Of a stretch of DNA of 64,000 nt, positions 3,401 through 55,407 are shown one piece after another. Position 1 is the stretch's first letter. The number at the start of each line of letters is the position of its first letter. Both the position numbers and the translations under genes were made by a program. Origin of the DNA: Cymodocea nodosa (lineage: Eukaryota > Streptophyta > Magnoliopsida > Alismatales > Cymodoceaceae); assembly GCA_036874045.1 (NCBI GenBank), contig CM072339.1, positions 2,735,501 through 2,799,500 on the forward strand. The letters run 5' to 3'. The notes under the pieces were generated by a model, which saw only the letters and a program-made list of their open reading frames with translations, did not search any database and was not told where the DNA came from.

Positions 3401-4869
3401 CAAATTCTTTGGCAACTTCTCAGATGTAAGCGATGTACGTTAGTTTACCCTTTTGTAGTTCGTTGTTAAGTTGCATGATCGACAACATTGCAGCCTCCTC
3501 CCACTCCTTTTAGACTTTGATTAAACAAAAAGTAACAACATCATTAAACATGATTTCATTCAGATAGGGCATTATAGTTACTTTTGCTATTTAGATGAAG
3601 TCCATGCCTAATATGACCTGAAAGTCGTCAACTGGCATGACAACGAACTTGCAACGTCCCCTTCACTCTTTGATGTGGATGTTGACTATTGCATTCTCCT
3701 TTGTTTATTTGGCTTGGAAGTCTCCATTCTATTCTTCGCATGCCTAAGTTAAAAAATGGAGTATCCTTCTTTAAGAAGAAGTTGTGGGTGACACCAGTGT
3801 TTACCATGACTAGTGCCTCCTTACTATTAATGTTGGTGTCTACATGCATCAAGTTGTCACTTCAGGAATGACTTCTTTTTGCTCGCATGGCGTTGAGTCA
3901 GAATGAGTTGATGCGATAGTTCTTTAATGTTGACGACTTGTTGCCTTATTGGATTAAGGCATTGAGTATCTCTTTCTTTGGATAGTCTCTCATGCAATAT
4001 AGTTCGTTGCAAATATAACATCCATTGGGCTTCTTCTTGCCTTTACCTACTTTTGGTTTGGATTCGTTAGACTTTGGTTGCTTACCCTTGTCTTTGCCCT
4101 TAGACTTGTCATTCTTGTTAGGTTTACATCTACCTTCCATGGAGCTAGCCTTGTAATCGACGAATGCTTCTATGACAATAAGGGCACTTGGTATATCATT
4201 GACGTATTGTTGTCAAAGTTTTATTTGAGTCCAACTCTAAAAGTTTGAGAAGAAGTTGTATAACTTGTCTTCTTCGGCTATGTTAGTGATCTATAACATC
4301 AATGAGTTAAATTCCTTAACATAGTCCTATATAGTGCTTGTTTACTATAACTTTCGTGTTTTATCCTTTGCTACCTAATAGGTGTTGGTCAACAGGAATT
4401 GTTGTTGAAGTTCCTTGTTGAACATGTCCTATGTTGTCATAGGGTTTGTACCTCATACACAGAATGCCATCTACTATAACTTCACGTTGGTTGTTATGAA
4501 CATACTAACCAACGTCACATTCTTCTCCTTTAGAGTATGACAAACTTTGAAGAAGACTTCCATATCTTCGAGAAAGTTTTCCAACTCCCTAGTCTTGTGT
4601 ATCTTAGTGAAAGCTCTAGGCTTTGAAACACATAGTTTAGAAGATGAAGAGGAGAAAGTTGTGGTACTTGCAACTGCCTTCTTTAGAATACACAATTCAT
4701 TTTAAAGAACGTTAACCTCTAAGATGATCTCATTCGTCTTTTCTAACAACCTTTGGATACTGTCGTATGATTTCTCCAAAAAGTCAACCTATGTTCAATG
4801 CTCTTCATTGATCGCTTTATATCATTATTAATATCTGAAGAGGAGCTTCCTTTTGCCATCTTGACAATG

Positions 4870-5482
4870 AAACTACTATCATGGGATTTTTTTTGAAGAT
4901 CGATGAAATCCCCATTGACATCAGCAAACTCGTTCTTTGGTCAACCTATTTTTATACTCCTTGGTTGAAAAGTTAGTAGTCGCTCTATCACTAGTAGAGC
5001 TTCACATGTAACATTCATCCTTTGACGTCTAGCGATTTACTTTCACCCCTAACGTGTTCTTAGTTGTGTAAAGTAGTGTTTGCCTTAGTTTTGCTTGTTT
5101 AGACCTCTTTTATAGTCACAACTTGCATTTAAGAGTCTTGTCTCTCAACCTTTGTGATCATTTCATGGTGTGAAACTTAGTCTTCTTCAATGTCGCTTCA
5201 GTGGTGTTCTCTTGCTAGCACGGGTTGACATAACTCACCAACTGATGCATCTCTTCATAGCTTCAGCTACATATTAGCTTCCCTCACCAATTGATGTGTC
5301 CCTTCGCTATTTTTGTTTTAAGTCACTCGCTTCGCAACTCTTCATATTCTGCAACCATTGATGTTCCATTTTGTTGCTCCTTTGGTAGGTGGATTGATTA
5401 TGATTGACATTATTACGGTGTTGGTCTAAGTGTTTCTTTAAATCTTAACTTAGTTAACTCACATTATGTGAGTCAACCTCAC
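4870..5482 (-). repeat. 5' LTR of minus-strand gypsy element
   Basis: This is the partner of the LTR at 1-485. Its inner part (4870-4996) matches, inverted, the inner part of the neighbouring element's LTR (6000-6120), which sets the inner border just upstream of gag. The exact ends are approximate. Confidence 0.65.
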
Positions 5483-21766: not shown

Positions 21767-23058
21767 ATGGATCTCCAGCCTCTGCTGGAACTCAACATGG
21801 GCAACCCAAACCTTCTCGACTGGTCTTGCAGTGACGAAACCCTAATGGAAGAAGCTCCAGTACTCCTCAGGTACGTCTGCATGTGGGTGGACGTCCCCAT
21901 TCCTCAAAGCCAGAAGAAGTTGATCGACTTGTTCTTGCCCTGCTTATTAATTAATTCCGTCTCTTCTTAATTTGCAGCGCCGTCAACTTTCCCGTCGTCG
22001 ACCACCCCACCGTCGACGGCATATTTCACGACCCACACAGGGACACGAGTATTCCGATGCACGAGGTGGTCGACGACGACCTCTTCGTCGATTGCCTCGA
22101 CCACCACGTCCCTGTGGTCCACCAGTACACCAACCCGGCCATGATGGTTGTGCAGGAGGACTGCAACTACCCGCAGTTCACGATGGTCGACACGAGTGAA
22201 CTCTTCCTCCACGGCGGTCCACCCTGCAGCAGCCAACTGCAGACGGACACGGCGGTGCAGATTAACGTCGACGCGGGAACCGGCGGCATGGTGGCGCCCG
22301 GTTATGAAAGCTTCTACTGTTCGGGCGGAGACAGCGTTGACGCCGGCAACTGCTGCAGCTACGACGGAGGAAGGGCGTCCAAGTCCAGTTCGATTGGGTT
22401 CGAGGAGATCTCCAAGTGCTTCTACATGACCATCACCGATGCGGCAAAGGAGATGAAGGTTGGGCTCACCGTCCTCAAGAAGAGGTGCAGAGAGCTTGGG
22501 ATCTCAAGGTGGCCGCATCGGAAGATGAAGAGTTTGAGCTCCCTCATTCATAATGTTCAGGTACATATATATATATATATATATATATCTAGAGAGTGAT
22601 ATTCAACTCCTATATATGAAATATATATAATTAATTGCTTAATATTTTTTCCAAAAAAACTGCAAAATTTAAATTCAGAATAGATAAATATATTAAAATT
22701 CTCGGTTGCTTTACATGCAAAAGAGAGAAGCGCCGACCGGCCGGCCGACTGCACAATTAATCTAATAATTGGTTGGCCGAAAAGCGGAAGTAGCATTAGA
22801 TTTTTTGAATGTTCCAAAAAAGATCCGCGGATTTATGCATGCATGCAGGAGCTGGAAGGAGGATCTGGGGATGTGAACATACAGAGGGAGATAGAATCGC
22901 TGGAGGAGAACAGGAGGTTGATGGAGAAGATGCCGGAGCTGGAGCTGTCGGAGAGGACCAAAAAACTCAGGCAGGCGTGCTTCAAGGCCAACTACAAGAG
23001 GAGAAGGGCAGCGCAGCCACCACCTCCCTATCTATCTCCTTGCCCAGAAAGCTCTTAA
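21767..23058 (+). CDS. RWP-RK domain transcription factor, RKD type
   Basis: Three exons, 21767-21870, 21978-22560 and 22849-23058, join in phase (donors GTACGT and GTACAT, acceptors TTGCAG and CATGCAG) into a 298-residue protein. It begins MDLQPLLELNMGNPNLLDW. The first 170 residues are acidic and low in known domains. The RWP-RK domain starts at about residue 176 (FEEISKCFYMTITDAAKEM) and runs through VGLTVLKKRCRELGI to RWPHRK at 212-217. Exon 3 gives a charged coiled region (IQREIESLEENRRLMEKM) and a basic tail. RKD proteins are nuclear DNA-binding factors acting in egg-cell and germline identity. The length and the absence of a PB1 domain favour RKD over the longer NLP proteins. The core reads RWPHRK, one step from the canonical RWPYRK. 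All exons are open, so it appears functional. Confidence 0.92.
22563..22588. repeat. (AT)n microsatellite at the start of RKD intron 2
   Basis: A run of AT dinucleotides begins three bases inside the intron, directly after the donor. A second TA run lies at about 23079-23100 in the 3' untranslated region. Confidence 0.9.
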
Positions 23059-32847: not shown

Positions 32848-34915
32848 CTAAAATTTCAAGCCGGCGACGAAGGCCACTCCGGTGGACGGTAACCAAGTGT
32901 CTCCGGTGATTAACCGACGGACGCTAAACCTGCTCGCCTCTTCGGCCATCGTGATCACTCTGTGCCCCGGCCATGTCACCCTGCTGCCGACGCCAGCCCC
33001 AGGGCCGAAGTTCATGTACTCCCCGTAGTAAAGGGTGTCGAGCGCGTAGTCGCCGTTCCATTCCAACCACCCTCTGGCGTCGACGTGGTCGTCGATGTAC
33101 GACATCATCACCATGACCCTGGAGTACACCTTCCACGGCCTGCCTAGGTACGTCGGGTACTGCGACTTCACGGGAGTGAGGTCCCTAGTGGGGACGATCC
33201 AGCAGTTGTGGATGGAGATCCCTGTGTTCTGGTTGGGGTCCTTCCTGTTCTGCGCGGTGATGGTGTTCTTCTGTTGGTTCATGGGCCTCCTGGCCCATAT
33301 GTTGCACTTCTGCAGGACAACGGCGGCGTTGCCGAAGATGAAGTCGACGGTGCCGTAGATGTCGCACTCGCGGTAGAACTGGCGTTGGGAATGGACGTAG
33401 AGAGTGTCCTGGTAGCCGATCATGTTGCACCGGTACACGACGGAGTGGTCCGCACCTATCCGGAGCGCCACCGCCTGGTGCTTCTCTGGGCCCGCCCAGT
33501 TCGCAAATGCCATGTCTCTCGCAATGAAACCCGCTCCCGTAGCCGCTGTTCGATAGATGATTGGTAAAATGAACAATATTATAAAGCAAACAATCCAGCT
33601 TGTTCGATCTAATAATAATACCAAAAGTTGCAGTGTGAAAAGTGGTCAAGTTATCTTGTACGCTTTTTGAGCCGGCGACGACGGTCCTGCCCTTGCCGTC
33701 TCCTATCATCATGATGTTCGTCTTCTTCCTTCCGATCTTGATCTTCTCGTAGTATCTGCCAGAAGAAGTTGGATTTGTAGAAGAAATCAAGCTTTTTAAT
33801 ACTGGGTCCTGTTCCAATGTATTCAATTTTTTAGGGCGTACATTCCAGCCTTCACGTAGATAATGATCCGACGGCTGCTCCTACGCGGCACGGCCTTGAG
33901 GGCCTTCTCGATGGTCCTGTGCGTGGCGTTACCCGTCTTCGACACGATAAAATCCACCCGGATTTCCGACGCAGGCATCTCAAGAAGTCTTCTGTCGTTT
34001 TTCTTCAGCCACGATGGGAAACCGTCGAGGTCAACGTCACCGTACCCCGTCGGCGTTGCGACGAGGAGATTTCTCCGCTTGCCTTGTATCGGAACGTCGC
34101 TGGTCTCCCTGTCTTTCGACCATAGTGCCACGATGGCCAGGCAGTTTCCGATCAGCTCGTTAAGATCCTTCATCTTCTCTGTCAAGACTTTCTTCATGTC
34201 CCCGTCCGGCACGCCTTCAAGCCCTTCAGAGCAGGTGTCCTGCCACAGAAAATGGCGTGTGTTTTTCAACACATTTATATTTCTGATCGATTTGTTGGAA
34301 GTCATATGTATGTGTGTGTACCTGGTTGGTGAGTGCAGCACTGAGCCATGTTAGCACATCGTCGTTTGATCCCCCATTGTCCTTCATCTGCTGCTGCGTC
34401 GACGCCGGCGCAATGACGGCGAGTGATCGAGACAGGTGGTCGATGGACTGGTCGAGCAGCTCCAAGCAATCCTCGTAGGCGGCGCGTGACAGGCCATCCA
34501 TCTCAAGGTTGGCAATGTCACCGGCATTGTAGAGCGCGTTTCCCAGGTGGTGCAGCGTCATGTTGACGGAGATATGGACGAGGTCTTCCCGACGGGCATC
34601 GCTGGCACCGGGAAACTTGAGCAGTGAGGTGACGCAGAGGGAAGGGTGCCGAGTGAGACTACAGGTCTGGGAGATGGTTTGGACGGGTTTCGAAAGCTCC
34701 CGGCCCCCTCCAGCGAGGCCGTACTGAGCGCCGACCGTGAGGACGGCAATCGACATGGCGGAGGCGACGAGGAAGACAGCGGCAGAGAGGCAGAGGATGA
34801 GGAGGCGCCGCCAGCGCGGGCTGCTGGAAGTGGTGGAACCAAGCTGTTTGGAGGCGAAGGGAAGGGTCTGGATCGAGCCGAGTGGAGGGAGTTGGGCTTG
34901 ATGTCCCATCCTCAC
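32848..34915 (-). CDS. Pectin methylesterase with PMEI pro-region (type I pectinesterase)
   Basis: Four exons on the minus strand, 34915-34322, 34239-33842, 33755-33622 and 33545-32848, join in phase into 607 residues. Introns are GT-AG (donors GTACAC, GTACGC and GTATTA). Residues 38-62 form a signal-anchor membrane segment. The PMEI domain has its four cysteines at 85, 94, 150 and 201. A dibasic processing site RRLL sits at 281-284. The catalytic domain keeps every key residue: Q399 (QAVAL), Q421 and D422 (YQDTLY), D443 (VDFIFG), R511 and W513 (LGRPW). The enzyme demethylesterifies homogalacturonan in the cell wall. The pro-region inhibits it until cleavage in the Golgi. The first ATG was used, though the second at 34909 (MGHQAQ) is equally possible. 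High GC and intact exons indicate a working gene. Confidence 0.95.
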
Positions 34916-34919
34916 CGGT

Positions 34920-35880
34920 AGTCTCGGCTCACGAAAGATGGAAATATAAAAGAAAGAATCTTAATTAATAAAACATTACTATTGTCTGAAAAAAATATGT
35001 TAGCTGGATACCACCGCCAGTTTCTTTTCTTCTCGGCTCAGGCCAGCCTGCATCATGAACGACGCCGCCGCTCATCCTCCTCCTCTTGGCACGTGCGCTT
35101 GATCTCCTTGCTAGCAGCGGCCCTGCCGGGGGTGTCACATTGACGGTCAAACAATGGGAGCTAGGCGGCGAGTGTGGATCAGTGGGTCCGATTGGTTTGG
35201 GGTGGTCTGAAAGATCCCTGTTGATGGAGCTGTACAGCCCACGGTCGTGATTGGTCTGTGTGCTCGAACTCGTTCTTACAACGCATTGCTGTTGGTCGCA
35301 ACGATGTTGGAGTACGTCTACCTTTTTCAATAGGTGGACAAGCGGTCGGATTTGCAAGTACTTGTTTGGATAAGTACTAAATAATATACTGAATAAATTG
35401 CCATTACGACATACCCAGTATGAAGAATGATCGGCGGCTCCGCCCACGGTAGTGATGCCGTCTGGGTTACCGTGCGGAGGCGCCTCTGTTTGCTTGAGGG
35501 TTCAGGGAGGAATAATTGCGTGCTGGTGGAATGTTGACCTTGAAGCCAACGCCGCTCTGTGGCAAAGGACCGGCAACCACAGGTTGGATCCACCCACAGC
35601 TCACGCACGCTTTCGGTTTCTTCACATGTCAACTGCGCAAACAGAGAGACGAGGTGGCCGGTCACCGGCATCGATGGCCGAGAAAGAACACCACCACCTA
35701 CAGCCCCATGGTTCTTCCACCGCCTGCTGATCGAAGACAACGCCGGCCCCATGGTGGCCAACAGCTCCACATGCCAAGGTGGGTGCTGGATTACTACTAG
35801 TCATACGCGCCAAGCCACATGGATTTTATTTGGTCACAAGTATATAAACTTTAAAATTAACAATGCAGCGGTGTCGTAGG
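34920..35880. other. GC-rich region upstream of the PME gene, unassigned
   Basis: Base composition from about 35030 to 35800 is far richer in GC than other intergenic DNA here. Overlapping open frames exist on both strands (minus 34965-35447 and 35327-35770, plus 35559-35879), but none shows a domain or composition that singles it out. It may be the PME promoter region or a decayed exon of another gene. Confidence 0.35.
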
Positions 35881-39729: not shown

Positions 39730-39957
39730 TTGCAGCAGATCGAGTTTCTGTTGCATGGTATAATTTTGTTCATGGATGGTCGGCTTGAAGCAATGCAGGC
39801 CATACGTCCCAAGAAAGAAGTACCCTTAAATAGAAAAAAAAGGAAGCTGCCCACGGGATACCAGATCAGGAAGAAGGAGATCGAACAACAACGACAACTC
39901 ACCGATCAAACCAGAAGAACACACGGTGCCCTCGTGAATATGAGCTTCGGCAATTAA
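39730..39957 (+). pseudogene. Possible N-terminal fragment of a hAT-like MYM-type protein
   Basis: A 75-codon open frame contains RKKRKLPTGYQIRKKEIEQQ followed by RTHGALVNM. This loosely resembles the K-LPSG-xKRKKxxxx ... GALxKF opening of plant zinc-finger MYM-type (hAT-derived) proteins. The rest of such a protein is absent. The call is weak, and the stretch may instead be the leader of the CAP gene that starts 80 bases downstream. Confidence 0.25.
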
Positions 39958-40039
39958 TGGTGGTTTCTTCCAGCTTGAAAAGGTGACGTCCTCCGTTCCC
40001 CACCCTCGTTTCTTGGTCTCTTGCCGTGGATCGGGGACG

Positions 40040-40825
40040 ATGGTGGCTCCCAGATTCCTCCTCCCTTTCCTCCTCTCCCTCCTCTCCCTCAGTGACCCCT
40101 TGCCCTCTGCCTGCGCCTTCTCCAGCAGCGTCTCCGCAATAGATCAATCTGGAGCCGATGAATCCATCTCCCACAACGATATGGTGAACGACAAGAGAAT
40201 GGAATATGAGTTGGAAAAGCGCAGGCACCACCACCACCACCACCACCATCATGGTCATCATCACTACCACCACTATCACCACTACCACCACCACCACCAC
40301 CATCACCACCAGTTGGTGCCAGGGGTGGCGAGCTCAATGCCGATGCCGGTGGACCTGCTGAAGGACCAAGCACGAGAGAAGATATACGAGCGGCACGCAG
40401 CGAAGGAGTTTCTAGACGGGCACAACAGCCTGCGTGACTACTTCGGGGAGCCACGGTTCAGATGGAACAAGACGCTGGCCCAGTACGCCCGAGACTACCT
40501 GAAGCAGAAGAAGGTGTCGTGCGGGAAAGAGCACTCCGGCGGACCCTACGGGGAGAACCTCTTCTGGGGCACCGGCAACAGATGGAGGGCGGTAGACGCC
40601 GTCCAGAAATGGGCCATGGAGCATTACTACTACAACGAGGCTAACAACTCCTGCCTGAACGGGAGGATGTGCGGTCACTACACCCAGATGGTGTGGAAGA
40701 GCAGCCTCATGATCGGATGCGCTCGGATGGTGTGCAAGACCGGCGACGTCCTCGTCCTATGTAGTTATGATCCCCCTGGCAACTACGTCGGCGAGCGTCC
40801 TTTCCAGGAGAGCCCTCTGGCGTGA
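40040..40825 (+). CDS. Secreted CAP/PR-1-like protein with histidine-rich insert
   Basis: This is an intronless open frame of 261 residues from the ATG at 40040. That start was preferred over the in-frame ATG at 39983 because it opens directly into a signal peptide (MVAPRFLLPFLLSLLSLS, cleavage near PSACA). Residues 63-90 are a histidine tract: 24 His with three Tyr and one Gly in 28 positions. The CAP domain follows from about residue 112 to 255. It has the four family signatures HNSLRDYFGEPRFRWN, GPYGENLFWG, CGHYTQMVWK and LCSYDPPGNYVGERPF. All six cysteines are present (161, 205, 211, 227, 232, 241), and the cavity residues His128, Glu172 and His213 are kept. PR-1 proteins are apoplastic, sterol-binding and defence-linked. 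The C-terminus PPGNYVGERPF matches the CAPE peptide pattern, with six extra residues after it. High GC and an intact frame suggest an active gene. Confidence 0.93.
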   Translation: MVAPRFLLPFLLSLLSLSDPLPSACAFSSSVSAIDQSGADESISHNDMVNDKRMEYELEKRRHHHHHHHHHGHHHYHHYHHYHHHHHHHHQLVPGVASSMPMPVDLLKDQAREKIYERHAAKEFLDGHNSLRDYFGEPRFRWNKTLAQYARDYLKQKKVSCGKEHSGGPYGENLFWGTGNRWRAVDAVQKWAMEHYYYNEANNSCLNGRMCGHYTQMVWKSSLMIGCARMVCKTGDVLVLCSYDPPGNYVGERPFQESPLA

Positions 40826-42421: not shown

Positions 42422-42424
42422 TTA

Positions 42425-42600
42425 GGGGGTGTTTGTGCACTCAGAAAATGACGGAAAGAAAATGATGGAAAACTACGGAAAGGAAAATAACAGAAAGTAA
42501 CAGAAAATTTATAGAAAATTAGAGTGTTTGTGCACGTAACAGAAAATGACGGAATTTGAAAAACGTGTGTTTGTGCATGTAATAGAAAATGATGGAAAAT
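42425..42600 (+). repeat. Left terminal inverted repeat and subterminal repeats of Harbinger
   Basis: Three copies of GTGTTTGTGCA(C/T) followed by AGAAAATGACGG or close variants lie within the first 160 bases. The outermost copy is the terminal repeat itself. Confidence 0.8.
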
Positions 42601-42747
42601 TATAGAATGTAAATTATGTATGCTTATTCACATATTAGAAAATATTGAAGACTAACTCAATTCAATATTTATTGTTCATGTTTGGAAGATAGAGAATAAG
42701 AAAATTTGTCATAAATAATACAAGATAGTTACAACATAAAATACATA

Positions 42748-44163
42748 TCACATCTCTCTATTGTTCCACATATCTCTCATAATATTGGCACGTATTGTAT
42801 CAGCAATTTGTTTTCTATAATCCTTACTTGATTCAACAGTAGTAGATGTAGTTTTTTCTGTAAAAGTTTGTTGAACATTATCATCTGGCATTCCTTGTAA
42901 TTCTTCTTGCTCATCCTCAAGTAAATCTGTTTTGTCTGCTTTCTGAATAAAATTGTGAACTAAAAAACATGCCAATACAATCTTTCCTTGTGTTTCAAAA
43001 GGAAATGGCATATAACCTCGTAAAATTGAGAATCGATGTTTGATTATTCCAAATGTACGTTCAATTACTGTCCTTAACTGTGAATGCCTATAATTGAAAT
43101 TTTCAATTGCATTCATTGGAAGTCTATTAGCATTATAATCATTCAAGTGATATCTTGCACCTCGAAATGGTACAATAAATTCTGGCCTATTAGGAAAACC
43201 AGCATCTCCCAAGTAATATTTACCTGTAATTTATATAGAAGTTTAGAATATAATGTTAGAAACATTAATTCTACAATTTCTACTATACATAAGTATTCAC
43301 ATTATTTTTATTAGTATCATACCTGATGGAATCTTAAAAGCATTACGTCGAGAAAGTGCATCATGAAGAATACGAGCATCAGCTGCTGATCCTTCCCATC
43401 CACTAAGAACATAAACAATTTCTATATCAAAATTGCATGCTGCTAATACATTTTGTGATAATTCACCTTTTCTATTCCTCCAACGTGCAGTTTCTTCACC
43501 ATAAATTGTAGCTTTGACATGAATATCATCAATTGCTCTAATGCAATCCTAAAAGAAAAAAGAATATACATAATAAAGACCACTACATAGTAAAGAAGAC
43601 ATTGAAATATAACATTAACTCACCTTGAAATAAGGATAAACATGCCGATCATTTTGAATTCGTGCTAGTGTTGATGATTCTTGCTTAACTAATAGTTTAT
43701 ATCCTACTTTTAAAATTTCATTCAACATTTCATTGAAGTATGTACTAATTGTCCAACCAGATCGACGAAAGCGTTCATTACTTACACCATATCTTTGATT
43801 TTGTCCAATTATAACTAAAAATATTGCCACCTTTTCTTCCACATTCATACATCTACTATCTTGCACTACCCCTTCACGTCTCAAAAAACTACAAAAGTGG
43901 AAGAATACATGTTGATTCATTCTATAAATTTTCCTGCAATTATATACTTGATTAGGTAAAGATGGATTTAATAACGTAGTAATATATTCTTGTCCTTCTT
44001 TGTTGTATATTCTAGAAGTACTCCTTGCAACATAATTCGCACCACTTGCAAAAGTATTTATGAATTTCCATGCTTTCATCAAATATAAGAGTATTTGTTC
44101 TTGTTCTGCCTCTTCCTCTTCCATAAGTGCTTTCAAAAGTTTCATGTTTGCATTTGTGTCCAT
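42748..44163 (-). CDS. PIF/Harbinger DDE transposase
   Basis: Three exons, 44163-43624, 43548-43323 and 43223-42748, join in phase into 413 residues with GT-AG introns (donors GTGAGT and GTATGA). The first 180 residues include the HTH-like stretch usual in the family (MNVEEKVAIFLVIIGQNQRY). The DDE domain has D187 (AIDDIH), D262 (YLGDAGFPNRPEF) and E310 (VIERTFG). The last two are 47 residues apart, as in the PIF group. The GSAADARIL block at 234-241 is also typical. The enzyme cuts and pastes the element with its ORF1 partner in the nucleus. No stop or frameshift was found, so the protein could be active. The splice sites are inferred by eye and by family continuity. Confidence 0.92.
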
Positions 44164-44472
44164 TTGTAGTAAGTAAAATTACCTACAAAAAAAAAACCAG
44201 ATAGACAATAATATTTACATCAGATGATGACAATAACAATCTACATTAGAACATAATAAAAATATCTGGTACATCATCAACATACATAACATTAAATAAC
44301 ATGAAACATTATCTTGTACATCATCAATATCAACAACATATATAACATTCAACAACATAATACCACCAACAACATTCATAATAATAGCAAGGCCTTAATA
44401 ACAATGTTTACTGCCTAACATCAACAACATTCTTCATTTCATATTATGTCTTAACCAAGTTAGTCTCATGTC

Positions 44473-45475
44473 CTACGGTAAACGTAAAAATATTCTTCGT
44501 TTTTGATGATTTTCTAATAATGTCATTGCATTATATACTTCATCTTCATTTAGCTCACTTAGTTCAAGCAATGATGGAATAATGTCTAATTCATTTCTTT
44601 CTTCATTGTGTTGGAGTCTTAAGAATCCATTTCTTTCTTCCTCAGTTTTGGCTATACGCTCCATTATCTGCATTCTAGTTCTATTACACTCTTTATATTC
44701 CTGTAAAAATTCTTTCATATCTATTTCCATATCCCTAACTTATGCTGCCATCTTCTCAGATGATTCTGCATGAGGACGAGCTCGCGAGTGCTTCTTTTTA
44801 GAATCCAATTTTTGTGAAGATGGTGTTGACATATCATCACTAGATGGTATTGGACATGTGATGTTATTGAAGTTACTGGATAGAGATATGTCATCATTTA
44901 AATTAACATCTTCAGACTCATAGAAGTCCATAAGTATTGCGCTTGTTCCTCCTCCAGCAACACTTGTCTGAAAAATTAACTTCAACTGCTCATATATTGT
45001 ACATGACTTTCCTTTCAAGGTGGCACATTCAAGATGACTCTACAAATGAAGAAGAAATATAATGAGTACAAAATAAAGTATATATAAAATAAGAGAGAAA
45101 CATGTGCATCATAATAATTAAAGTGACCTTCACAAATTCTTCCCAGATTTCATCAGGTACAGATGTATGACCACTCATATAGTCCCATCCCCATCCACTT
45201 TGATTGGCAATCTTGCTATAATTTTTATACATTTGCTGCCAGGTCTTTAAACGACTGTCAATATTTTTTTTCTTTAACCCAGCATTTGTTTTCAAATTGT
45301 AAGCTTTGATTACTTCAATCCATGTGTCCGCTCTAATCTTGCCATCAGGTGTTTTGGCGTTTCCTTGATTAATAGTATCACAAAGAAGATTTAAGATCAT
45401 TTCATCATCTTTCTGACTCCATGTGAAATTTTTCCTTGATGTAGTCTTCTTTCCATGACCATTGCTTTCTGCCAT
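44473..45475 (-). CDS. Harbinger ORF1, Myb/SANT-like DNA-binding protein (one in-frame stop)
   Basis: Exon 1, 45475-45128, encodes a trihelix/Myb-SANT-like domain (FTWSQKDDEMILNLLCDTI ... WWQQMY-type helix, GWGWDYMSG ... IWEEFVK). Exon 2 starts at 45039 in phase 0 (SHLECATLKGKSCTIYEQL) and is open to a TAA at 44742-44740. The same frame then continues for about 88 codons to 44473 with family-like content: coiled EFLQEYKECNRTRMQIMERI and the C-terminal ELSELNEDEVYNAMTLLENH. So the stop either truncates the protein at about 215 residues, or is a recent single-base loss of a protein of about 300 residues. ORF1 proteins bind subterminal DNA and recruit the transposase. It sits just upstream of the transposase gene on the same strand. 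Confidence 0.85.
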
Positions 45476-46455
45476 TGTCTACAAATGTATTATTTGCATA
45501 ATTAAAATACCTCACAAGTAATTAAGATTGATAGAGAAACATAATGTCAAGCATTCAAGTGAAGTAGATTAACATAAAAGAATAAGTACCAATTGATTCT
45601 AGGGTTGTAATATTAACATGCAAAAGCAAATATTTGGCAACTTCAATATTAACAATGCACGAACATGTAAAAACAACATTCTACTCTATTCCTGGAATGA
45701 CCAAAAACAACACCATAGTCAATAAGATAATTAGTTTTCAACATTACCATCATAAAAAACTAAATCACCATTACATGAACATGTAAAAATATTGAATTAC
45801 TTGCATGTCTGATACTGAAAAATCACTTTTATGTGGTGTATAATGACGCAGACAAAATGATCTGTGAGAAATTGCAAATGTTGAAAGAAATATAAGTAAA
45901 AGAATCCATTGGAAATAAGTACCGATTACCTGTGCAAGGTAGCTTTCAGAAAATAGGAGAACTGGAATATTTTAAATTCACAAGAAAACAGCACCATCAA
46001 TTGCTCATGCATTATCAATATTTTGGCATGAACATGATATCCATACTTTGCTGGATATTATGATGTCCATAAATTGTATTCTTATCCTGGTTTTGTCAAA
46101 CAGTTAAGAGTACAAGTACAATAGGAATTATAATGTCTATAGCATGTGCATCAATTGTTCACACCTACCACAAATTCAACATTGCAAATTCAACATTACT
46201 AAACAATGGTGCAAATGGAAGCAAAGTCTTAATCACTACTACAGAAGATAATATTGCTGATCAGATGTCTGCTTCTGATCGCCATAAACATACATAATTC
46301 GTTACATGAAAAATAGAGTAGTGAATGTAAAATGATTACATAAATATCATACATAAATTATCAGTATTTCATAATCAGTATGCGGCCAACTTACTTTAGC
46401 ATTACTTGCTATTGCTGGGATAAACATAATAAAGGATAAAGAGAGCAGTGAATGT

Positions 46456-46810
46456 AAATCAACTAAAGCAATGTTTCGTTTATTGTTCATTAATCCCTGA
46501 AGATCATATTTCTCAAACAGTTAAGAACTACCGTCATTGTGGATTGTGCACCCAAAAAACGATGCATACTGTCATTGTTTATCACTGCACCATCCTAGCA
46601 ATATACACCACTTAAGTGATTAGAGCAGTTCTTAAACAGTTCATTGTCCTATACTGTCATTTTCGCTTTCTCTGTGACTATTTAAGAGCAATAATCTTTG
46701 TTTATTGTTTATCTAGCAAATCAACTAAAGCAATGCTTCGTTTATTGTTCATTATTCCCTGAAGATTATATTTCTCAAACATTTAAGAACTACTGTCATT
46801 GTGGATTATA
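46456..46810. repeat. Direct repeat of about 93 bases inside Harbinger
   Basis: AAATCAACTAAAGCAATG..T at 46456 recurs at 46718 and continues through TCGTTTATTGTTCATTA and TCAAACA.TTAAGAACTAC to GTGGATT. The copies differ at several bases. The region between ORF1 and the right end (45480-46880) otherwise shows no gene. Confidence 0.85.
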
Positions 46811-47074
46811 TTTTTGATGCACTAGTCAATAGGAAAGCATTACAACCAGATGTACATTAACATCGTAATTACTATCATGCAGATTAACATTACAGGAAGA
46901 TGCCATAAATCACCATTAACATCATCAACATACATAAAACTGTATGACAGTAGGGTATAATGTCACGATGGGGGTAAATCAAATTACAGGAAGATCGTTT
47001 GAAAACTAAATCAATTGAAGAAGAAAAAGAATTAGCATTACTTGGAATTTTACCGATTACTTGAAGACATCGCT

Positions 47075-47580
47075 TTCCTAGTTGCGACGAGGAGGACAAC
47101 GACGATTCTGTGTGATAAATGAGGGTGAAGATGTGCAAGGATGCGATGAGGAGACGACGGCGCAAGAAGGACGACAATGCTTCCCTAGTTGCGACGAGGA
47201 GGACGACGGCGCAAGAAGGACGACAACGCTTCTCTGGATGTGACGAGGAGATGACGGTGCAAGAAGATGCGCAAGAAATAAGTATAGAGACGATGGCGCA
47301 AGAAGATGCGCAAGAAGGACGACACCACAAGAAAATGCAACGAGGAGGAAGACAGTAAGGAGACGACGTCGCAAGAAGATGCGCAACAAATAAGTACAGA
47401 GACGACAACGGAAGAAGATGTGCTTCGGATGTCGGACGACGGCGCTTTCTGGATGCGACGAGGAGACGATGGCGCAAGAAGATGTGACGAGGAGGATGAC
47501 GACGACGAGACGACAGCAGAAGAAGATGTGACGAGGTGGCCAATAGCGAGGAGATGACAGCAGGCGAAGATGCGCAAGGG
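47075..47580. repeat. GC-rich degenerate minisatellite near the Harbinger right end
   Basis: Short units rich in GACGA, GAGGA and GCGCAAGAAG (for example GACGACGGCGCAAGAAG) are repeated about every 25-50 bases. Long open frames on both strands arise from this low-complexity composition and are not genes. It lies upstream of ORF1 in the element's own direction. Confidence 0.8.
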
Positions 47581-47629
47581 CGAGGATGCGCGAGGAGGGT
47601 TTGTTTGAGGGGTGTTTTCCATCGTTTTC

Positions 47630-47800
47630 ACCCTCGGATGTGGTTGGAAAATGACGGAAAAATGGTTAGGGTGTTCGCCAGTTTCACCAGAAAATGACGG
47701 AAAATCTTGGGGTGCACAAACACCCAAAAAATGACGAAAAATTTTCCATCATTTTCCTTTCCGACGTTTTACGTCGTTTTCTGGGTGCACAAACACCTCC
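47630..47800 (-). repeat. Right terminal inverted repeat and subterminal repeats of Harbinger
   Basis: Inverted copies of the left-end phrases are present: GGTGCACAAACACC occurs twice (near 47731 and 47784), with GAAAATGACGG-type blocks between them. The outermost copy ends at 47800, before TTA. Confidence 0.8.
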
Positions 47801-47803
47801 TTA

Positions 47804-53794: not shown

Positions 53795-55407
53795 GGGGGG
53801 GTTTGTGCACTCGGAATTTGAATTCTGTAGAATTTGAATTCTAACGGAATTTGAATTCTGTAGAATTTGACTGAAAGAATTCAAAATCTGGGTGTTTGTG
53901 CATGTTCAGGAATTTGACGAAAATTGAATTCCAGGTGTTTGTGCACGTGACAGAATTGGAGGGAATTGAATAAAATTGATTTTTAATAAAATTAAGTATT
54001 GACTTAAAATAATTAGTGAAAATGTAATTAATTTATTAATGAATTGTTGACATTAATAAATGAATATATTATTAAAATAAATGTTTATATATCATTTATC
54101 AATTAATTAAATATATCATTATATAAAATAAATCAGAACATAACAGAAATTGATAACTTTCCCGTTATATTACATATTTAAAACAACAAAACTAAAATTA
54201 ACCGAAACTTGTAAATTATGCGAAATTTCCAACAGAGGAGTAAAATCAACACATGATTATTTGATAACTAACAATATTATTTGAAGAAAAAACACAAGAG
54301 ACCCGGCAATTCCTATCCGATGAACATTGCCCGATCAGCTTCATTACATGTAAATTCAATAAGAAATCAAAAGCTACATCGCACATGGCAGAAAGCCAGA
54401 AACAAGCCTAAATTCGCGCAACCGGGAAAACAGAAATTTCAAGAGAAAAAACAACAAGTTCTAGGAGAGCCCGAATTTTAACATCCTCGGACTAATCCAA
54501 CCCATCAAAAACAGAAAAGCCAAATTTACGGGAAAAACAGAGAGAGACAGAATCAATTAGAATTCAGTACTAGGAACTGAGAAAGCAAGCAGTCCACCTT
54601 TGAAGTCAGAAAGATTTCCTCCCTTCCAACGTCAACGGTGACGAACCACTTCACAGAATCAGCAGCAGAGTCCACCGGGACGAAGAGACCACCGGAGGAG
54701 GAAATCTTCGTTTCGCGCGGTATTGGAAGGTGAGGAATATGGATTGGAATTTGAGACCAGTCTAGTCACCGCAAGCGAAAAAGGAGCATAATTGTACCAG
54801 TGAGCGAGAGATTTCGTACTGAGAAAGAATGAAAAAGGGACCGACCTGGGGATCTATCATGCAATATTGGCGTGGCTTCTTACAGTGGTTGGCCCCTTAA
54901 CCTTGTAAATTATGCGAAATTAACCGACGAGCGTGTGGGCGAAGGCGACGAGCGAGACGACACACGCAGGCGAGGGCAACGAGTGAGACGACGAGCGCGC
55001 AGGCGAGGGCGATGGGCGAGGACGACGAGCACGCAAGTGAGGGCGACGAGTGACACGACACATGCAGGCCAGGGCGACGAGCGAGACGACGAGCGCGCGG
55101 GCGAGGGCGACGAGCGAGTCGATGAGCACGCAGGCGAGGGCGACGAGCGAGACGACGATGACGTAGGCGAGGGCGACGAGCGAGACGACGATGACGTAGG
55201 CGAGGGCGACGAGCCAAACGACGAGCACGCAGGCGAGGGCGACGAGCGAGACGACGACCGTGCGGGCGAGGACGACGAGCAGGATGCGACGGGGCCGAAT
55301 GTAGGAAAGGTCGGAATTCATTTTCCAAAATGCACAAACACCACTAACTCAGAATCTGATGGAAAAAATTTTCAATTCTGTTAGATTCCGAGTACACAAA
55401 CCCCCCC
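53795..55407. mobile_element. Non-autonomous Harbinger-like element nested in the copia
   Basis: The 1613-base segment is flanked by TTA at 53792-53794 and 55408-55410. Its ends are inverted: GGGGGGGTTTGTGCACTCGG at the left, and at the right the complement of GGGGGGGTTTGTGTACTCGG. The GTGTTTGTGCA phrase recurs inside the left end twice (near 53900 and 53937) and inside the right end once (near 55330), as in the autonomous element at 42425. There is no transposase. The interior holds an AT-rich half and a GC-rich minisatellite. The TTA duplication and shared tip suggest mobilisation by a PIF/Harbinger transposase. Beyond the tip, the subterminal sequence differs from the element at 42425. Confidence 0.88.
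54930..55300. repeat. 33-base minisatellite in the non-autonomous Harbinger element
   Basis: Units of about 33 bases around GGCGAGGGCGACGAGCGAGA are repeated roughly ten times. Two adjacent units (about 55150-55210) are almost identical. Because 33 is a multiple of three, long frames stay open on both strands (for example DDDDVGEGDER repeats), but these are composition artefacts. Confidence 0.88.

Follow-up and report, generated by a model that had tools for sequence, protein, structure and literature searches.

A full-length PIF/Harbinger transposon of Cymodocea nodosa that is probably decaying and most likely unable to move itself

Introduction

Transposases of PIF/Harbinger elements have a catalytic triad with a spacing in the range DD47-48E. 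Several members of this class have been described in plants. PePIF1a of Phalaenopsis is given as 5,053 bp long, with a TTA target-site duplication, a terminal inverted repeat (TIR) starting GGG, an ORF1 of 272 residues and a transposase of 427 residues encoded in three exons; the same source reports transcription of PePIF1a and activity of PePIF1b in transposon display (PMC6327408). For MtPH/MtMaster and DcMaster, a 3-bp TTA/TAA duplication, the G(N)5GTT terminal motif of PIF elements and the pair of transposase and orf1 are described, with tandem-repeat stretches in one subfamily (PMC2213677; for DcMaster, PMC6327408). The rice elements Ping and Pong combine a Myb-like ORF1 and a DDE transposase with a 3-bp duplication and with non-autonomous relatives such as mPing, and their proteins have been shown to be active (PMC2836001).

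Here we analyse an element of this kind in 64,000 nucleotides of Cymodocea nodosa DNA (C7:2735501-2799500; this whole stretch is the window), using the 374.6-Mb assembly of 28 contigs for the genome searches. The element resembles PePIF1a in its size of about 5 kb, its TTA duplication, the GGG start of its TIR and the presence of ORF1 beside a three-exon transposase, whereas the PePIF1a TIR (GGGYCYGTTTGGGGCAGCT) differs from it after the first bases (PMC6327408). It shares the duplication, the terminal motif and both genes with MtPH/MtMaster and DcMaster, and its family likewise contains tandem-repeat stretches; the TIR sequences and lengths reported for those elements (PMC2213677; for DcMaster, PMC6327408) differ from its own. 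Its gene content, 3-bp duplication and non-autonomous relatives are also those of the Ping/Pong system as characterized in PMC2836001. In contrast to Ping and Pong with their active proteins, the window copy has a truncated ORF1 and an altered motif around the first catalytic Asp.

Results

The element carries its genes on the minus strand, with ORF1 followed downstream by the transposase. Its features, in window coordinates, are as follows:

42422..42424, no strand: left target-site duplication, TTA
42425..47800, minus strand: whole PIF/Harbinger element, 5,376 bp
42425..42457, plus strand: left TIR, starting GGGGGTGTTTGTGCAC
42748..43223, minus strand: transposase exon 3 and stop (codons to 42751), with a DDE_Tnp_4 match (E 2.3e-14)
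43323..43548, minus strand: transposase exon 2, with the first catalytic Asp inside an altered motif
43624..44163, minus strand: transposase exon 1, 180 codons
44473..45039, minus strand: ORF1 exon 2, with a premature in-frame stop (codons to 44476)
45128..45475, minus strand: ORF1 exon 1, Myb/SANT-like domain
46308..46458, no strand: stretch present as a single unit here and as tandem units in some other copies
47046..47600, no strand: degenerate short repeats in a G+C-richer stretch on the right
47768..47800, minus strand: right TIR, starting GGAGGTGTTTGTGCAC on the reverse strand
47801..47803, no strand: right target-site duplication, TTA

An earlier note, made from the letters of the window, had described a young and potentially active PIF/Harbinger transposon with an exact TTA duplication, matching terminal repeats, an open 413-residue transposase with a DD47E triad and an ORF1 with a single stop. 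The class and these structural details were borne out; youth and potential activity were not. The 3-bp TTA duplication is exact, and the inverted ends extend over about 33 bp. Aligned over 34 positions, of which the outermost pair belongs to the duplication itself, they show 88% complementarity. Both ends begin with the G(N)5GTT motif (GGGGGTGTTTG and GGAGGTGTTTG). Judged by this terminal motif alone, the element would be of PIF rather than Pong type. An Rfam scan of the window gave no match at the gathering cut-offs.

The transposase frame runs through three exons joined by two GT-AG introns and ends in TGA after 413 codons. Counted by hand on the translation, the catalytic triad consists of D187 (43528-43530), D262 (43204-43206) and E310 (43060-43062), a spacing of 47 that is consistent with an IS5-like DDE transposase. 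The Pfam DDE_Tnp_4 match of exon 3 lies above the cut-off and spans D262 and E310; exon 2 falls just under it, with 24.1 of the 24.8 bits required, and its match begins 10 residues past D187. A comparison of the window transposase with solved structures yielded no match at E 0.01. ORF1 comprises two exons separated by one GT-AG intron and matches Myb_DNA-bind_3 (Pfam, E 1.9e-13), which supplies the second, Myb/SANT-like gene characteristic of PIF/Harbinger elements. Its frame is interrupted once, at codon 216 of 304 (44737-44739), past the Myb domain, and none of the 28 other copies compared has a stop at this codon.

D187 itself is retained, but at codons 184-190 the window copy reads RAIDDIH, with three changes flanking the Asp. 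In the other copies of the family, the sequence is GAIDGTH in 21 of 32, with one residue changed in 10 and two in one (L053). Exon 2 could be matched in seven of 12 related loci outside the family, and all seven have GAIDGTH. Two of the window's three changes occur singly in L021 and L032, both stop-bearing copies, and are therefore not unique losses. The text IDGTH was absent from the 15 papers listed, out of 327, in a literature text search. For rice Ping, PMC2836001 reports that the DDE-domain change D295A cut excision about 150-fold and that disrupting the Myb domain of ORF1 abolished it. Conservation of the motif suggests that the changes around the window's first Asp would be harmful to activity.

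The element belongs to a family of long, related copies. A DNA search of the genome gave 75 matching pieces at the best 29 places (window included) of 3,462 candidates, and the long matches of the 28 other copies are 92-97% identical to the window element. Because these 28 long copies align to it, the element is real beyond chance. Substitution distances over the first 3.76 kb of the 29 aligned copies average 5.0%, with 2.47% for the closest pair. Four further copies, taken from the DNA matches to exon 1, lie 3.9-6.0% from the window copy, and their addition, for 33 copies in total, changed neither the closest pair nor the window's nearest distance. That nearest copy, among the 32 others compared, is L013 at 3.06%, so the set contains neither the near-identical copies expected of recent activity nor a closer relative that could be a mother or daughter of the window element. 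The best other DNA match to transposase exon 1 or ORF1 was 98%, among the best 40 places scored per query. The earlier note had held that its reading would be refuted if all copies genome-wide were diverged and no insertion were polymorphic; as to the first half, diverged copies alone were found as far as these searches, in one assembly, reach.

A maximum-likelihood tree of the 29 copies is bush-like, with end branches of 0.0088-0.033 (median 0.018). The window's end branch of 0.013 is the fourth shortest and is not an outlier; the window copy pairs with L010 (support 96/88). Plant neutral rates are about 2.5e-9 to 1.3e-8 per site per year. At those rates this branch would correspond to about 1-5 million years, a figure inflated by the C-to-T excess described below, and we claim no absolute age.

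Copies also differ in their internal repeats. They are least alike in the right third of the element. Upstream of ORF1, the stretch 46308-46458 is present as several tandem units in L012, L018 and L035 and as one in the window, and at 46458 nine other copies have 116-257 bp extra, which the window copy and its tree neighbour L010 both lack.

Coding state, read in the frame of the window copy, points to widespread decay. Only three of the 33 copies have a transposase free of stops and frameshifts: the window copy, L028 and L031. The second intron of L028 has lost its AG acceptor, leaving the window copy and L031 as the only copies with canonical splice sites and an open transposase; L031 has six stops in ORF1. 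The earlier note had proposed looking for other copies with an uninterrupted ORF1, and there is one among the 33, L016, but it carries three transposase stops. Both proteins are thus open in none of the 33 copies, and the window copy itself falls short of encoding two intact proteins through the stop at ORF1 codon 216 and the altered first-Asp motif. A protein search, in which the best 101 of 6,422 places were scored, gave 49 exon-1 places (counted by eye) at at least 79% identity. Exons 1 and 3 were both stop-free in six of these, three of which have stops in exon 2. This search missed four exon-1 places found at the DNA level, which were then checked. An intact copy elsewhere in the genome is unlikely, a judgement that covers the best-scoring candidates.

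Several stop positions are shared between copies, for example ORF1 codons 97 and 297. C-to-T departures from the commonest base, a count that includes changes common to subfamilies, affect 13.3% of CG, 12.9% of CHG and 3.8% of CHH sites across the 29 copies, and 9.8%, 7.1% and 2.2% in the window copy alone; all other types of change in the window copy amount to 21 of 3,759 compared sites. This context bias is the pattern expected of deamination of methylated cytosines and suggests that the copies were methylated. Relative to the family's commonest codon, the window transposase differs by 16 nonsynonymous and 4 synonymous changes. Its ORF1 has 9 nonsynonymous changes, 7 synonymous changes and one stop, and the 9 to 7 ratio would make it not clearly unconstrained.

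Traces of past movement were sought by joining the flanks of seven other copies and searching them in the genome. Among the 40 matches listed, some span the junction for L028 (2 matches) and L033 (24 matches); for the other five copies, the listed matches are to their own flanks only. Four diverged paralogous sites of L028 and L033, 74-81% identical, were checked at the junction and hold a single TTA. Since these empty sites have one TTA, members of the family inserted at TTA with duplication. When the window copy's flanks were joined and searched, they matched only themselves, giving no paralogous empty site for it. Exact 3-bp duplications flank five other copies (TAA in L013, GTA in L030, and TTA in L028, L031 and L033); in the remaining copies with both ends, the duplication is inexact or an end was not placed. 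A deletion derivative, L045, measures 1,356 bp between TTA sites.

The genome also contains a related family that looks younger. Four of its copies, L039-L042, were chosen from 12 places sharing one transposase score of 80.8 bits and are not a random sample:

Related-family copies, genome G000: C2:5417700-5423200, C5:8718500-8724000, C11:16737000-16742500 and C12:15500000-15505000

Pairwise substitution among the four is 0.47-0.75% over 4,548-4,911 sites with gaps left out. When gaps are included, identity to their best matches is 97.8-99.2%, and further copies of the family range down to 90%. In all four, the matches to the three transposase exons and to ORF1 (exon 1, and exon 2 up to the position of the window's stop) are free of stops. 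The related family has the window element's gene order and the GAIDGTH motif; amino-acid identity to the window copy is 52, 74 and 61-62% in transposase exons 1-3 and 52% in ORF1 exon 1. The left end of L040 (GGGGTTGTTAGTGCAC) equals the window's first 16 bases at 14 positions, but the next 12 bases at only six. The right end of the related family was not identified in the fetched copies. With the divergence within the related family as yardstick, the window's family is the older of the two, and the related family, rather than the window copy, is the stronger candidate for recent activity.

Discussion

We regard the window element, with good confidence, as a full-length, decaying PIF-type PIF/Harbinger cut-and-paste DNA transposon that is probably silenced and most likely unable to move itself. 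By analogy with zebrafish Harbinger3 and rice Ping/Pong, we presume that the ORF1 Myb protein attached to the terminal regions and recruited the DDE transposase, which would have excised the element and joined it to a TTA-like target, producing the 3-bp duplication; the empty sites of two other copies show the insertion step. The window copy may have inserted during the past, bush-like expansion of its family. Afterwards it was probably silenced and methylated, as the context bias of its C-to-T changes suggests, and gathered mutations. Since ORF1 is truncated and the transposase is altered around its first Asp, the copy most likely cannot mobilize itself; its ends seem intact enough that movement in trans might occur, given an expressed compatible transposase.

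The reading of the earlier note, a young and autonomously active element, has in its favour the exact duplication, the matching ends, the 413-codon open transposase with canonical splice sites, the single ORF1 stop and an end branch that is among the shorter ones of the tree. We nevertheless consider it very improbable: ORF1 is broken, the first-Asp motif is changed at three positions, no copy among the 33 has both proteins open, and the nearest relative found lies at 3.06% in a genome where the younger related family has pairs at 0.47-0.75%. The open transposase frame would also be explained if it were kept by the host after domestication, since 30 of the 33 copies have stops or frameshifts in the transposase and the window copy has none. 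Two points speak against this: relative to the family majority, nonsynonymous changes outnumber synonymous ones by 16 to 4, and the frame still sits within intact ends. A frame can also stay open without selection when mutations are few; we judge domestication extremely improbable.

The element might instead be dead as a source of enzyme and yet mobile in trans, through another copy or the related younger family. Its ends are well preserved, as are its TTA sites, internally deleted members such as L045 exist, and the Ping and Pong proteins, 62-77% alike, are reported to cross-mobilize mPing (PMC2836001). With 14 of its 16 outermost left-end bases in common with the window element, L040 points to a possible partner for movement in trans; yet the agreement falls off past base 16, transposase identity between the families is 52-74% by exon, and no near-identical pair in the window's family suggests recent movement. 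Mobility in trans thus appears unlikely overall, and the narrower proposal that the younger relative, at only 52-74% transposase identity, still moves the decayed full-length family is distinctly unlikely. The preferred reading remains that of a decayed copy most likely unable to move itself.

The element carries little weight alone, being a decayed representative of a transposon class that is common in plants. It does illustrate that an exact target-site duplication together with one long open frame does not show youth or activity, and it directs attention to the related family, which shares this genome and looks recent.

The window has other features as well. A stretch of 1,613 bp at 53795-55407 has PIF-like inverted ends of the GGGGGGGTTTGTGCACTCGGAA type between TTA sites, encloses a low-complexity acidic and arginine-rich frame (54833-55384) that has no Pfam match, and looks like a non-autonomous relative. 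A frame at 39944-40825, which ends about 1.6 kb short of the element, on its left side, encodes a CAP/PR-1-like secreted protein with a long histidine-rich stretch. Further away are a frame with an RWP-RK domain (21955-22599) and, on the minus strand at 32848-34960, a pectinesterase gene with a PMEI domain, which lies in the 4-kb stretch with the highest G+C content of the window.
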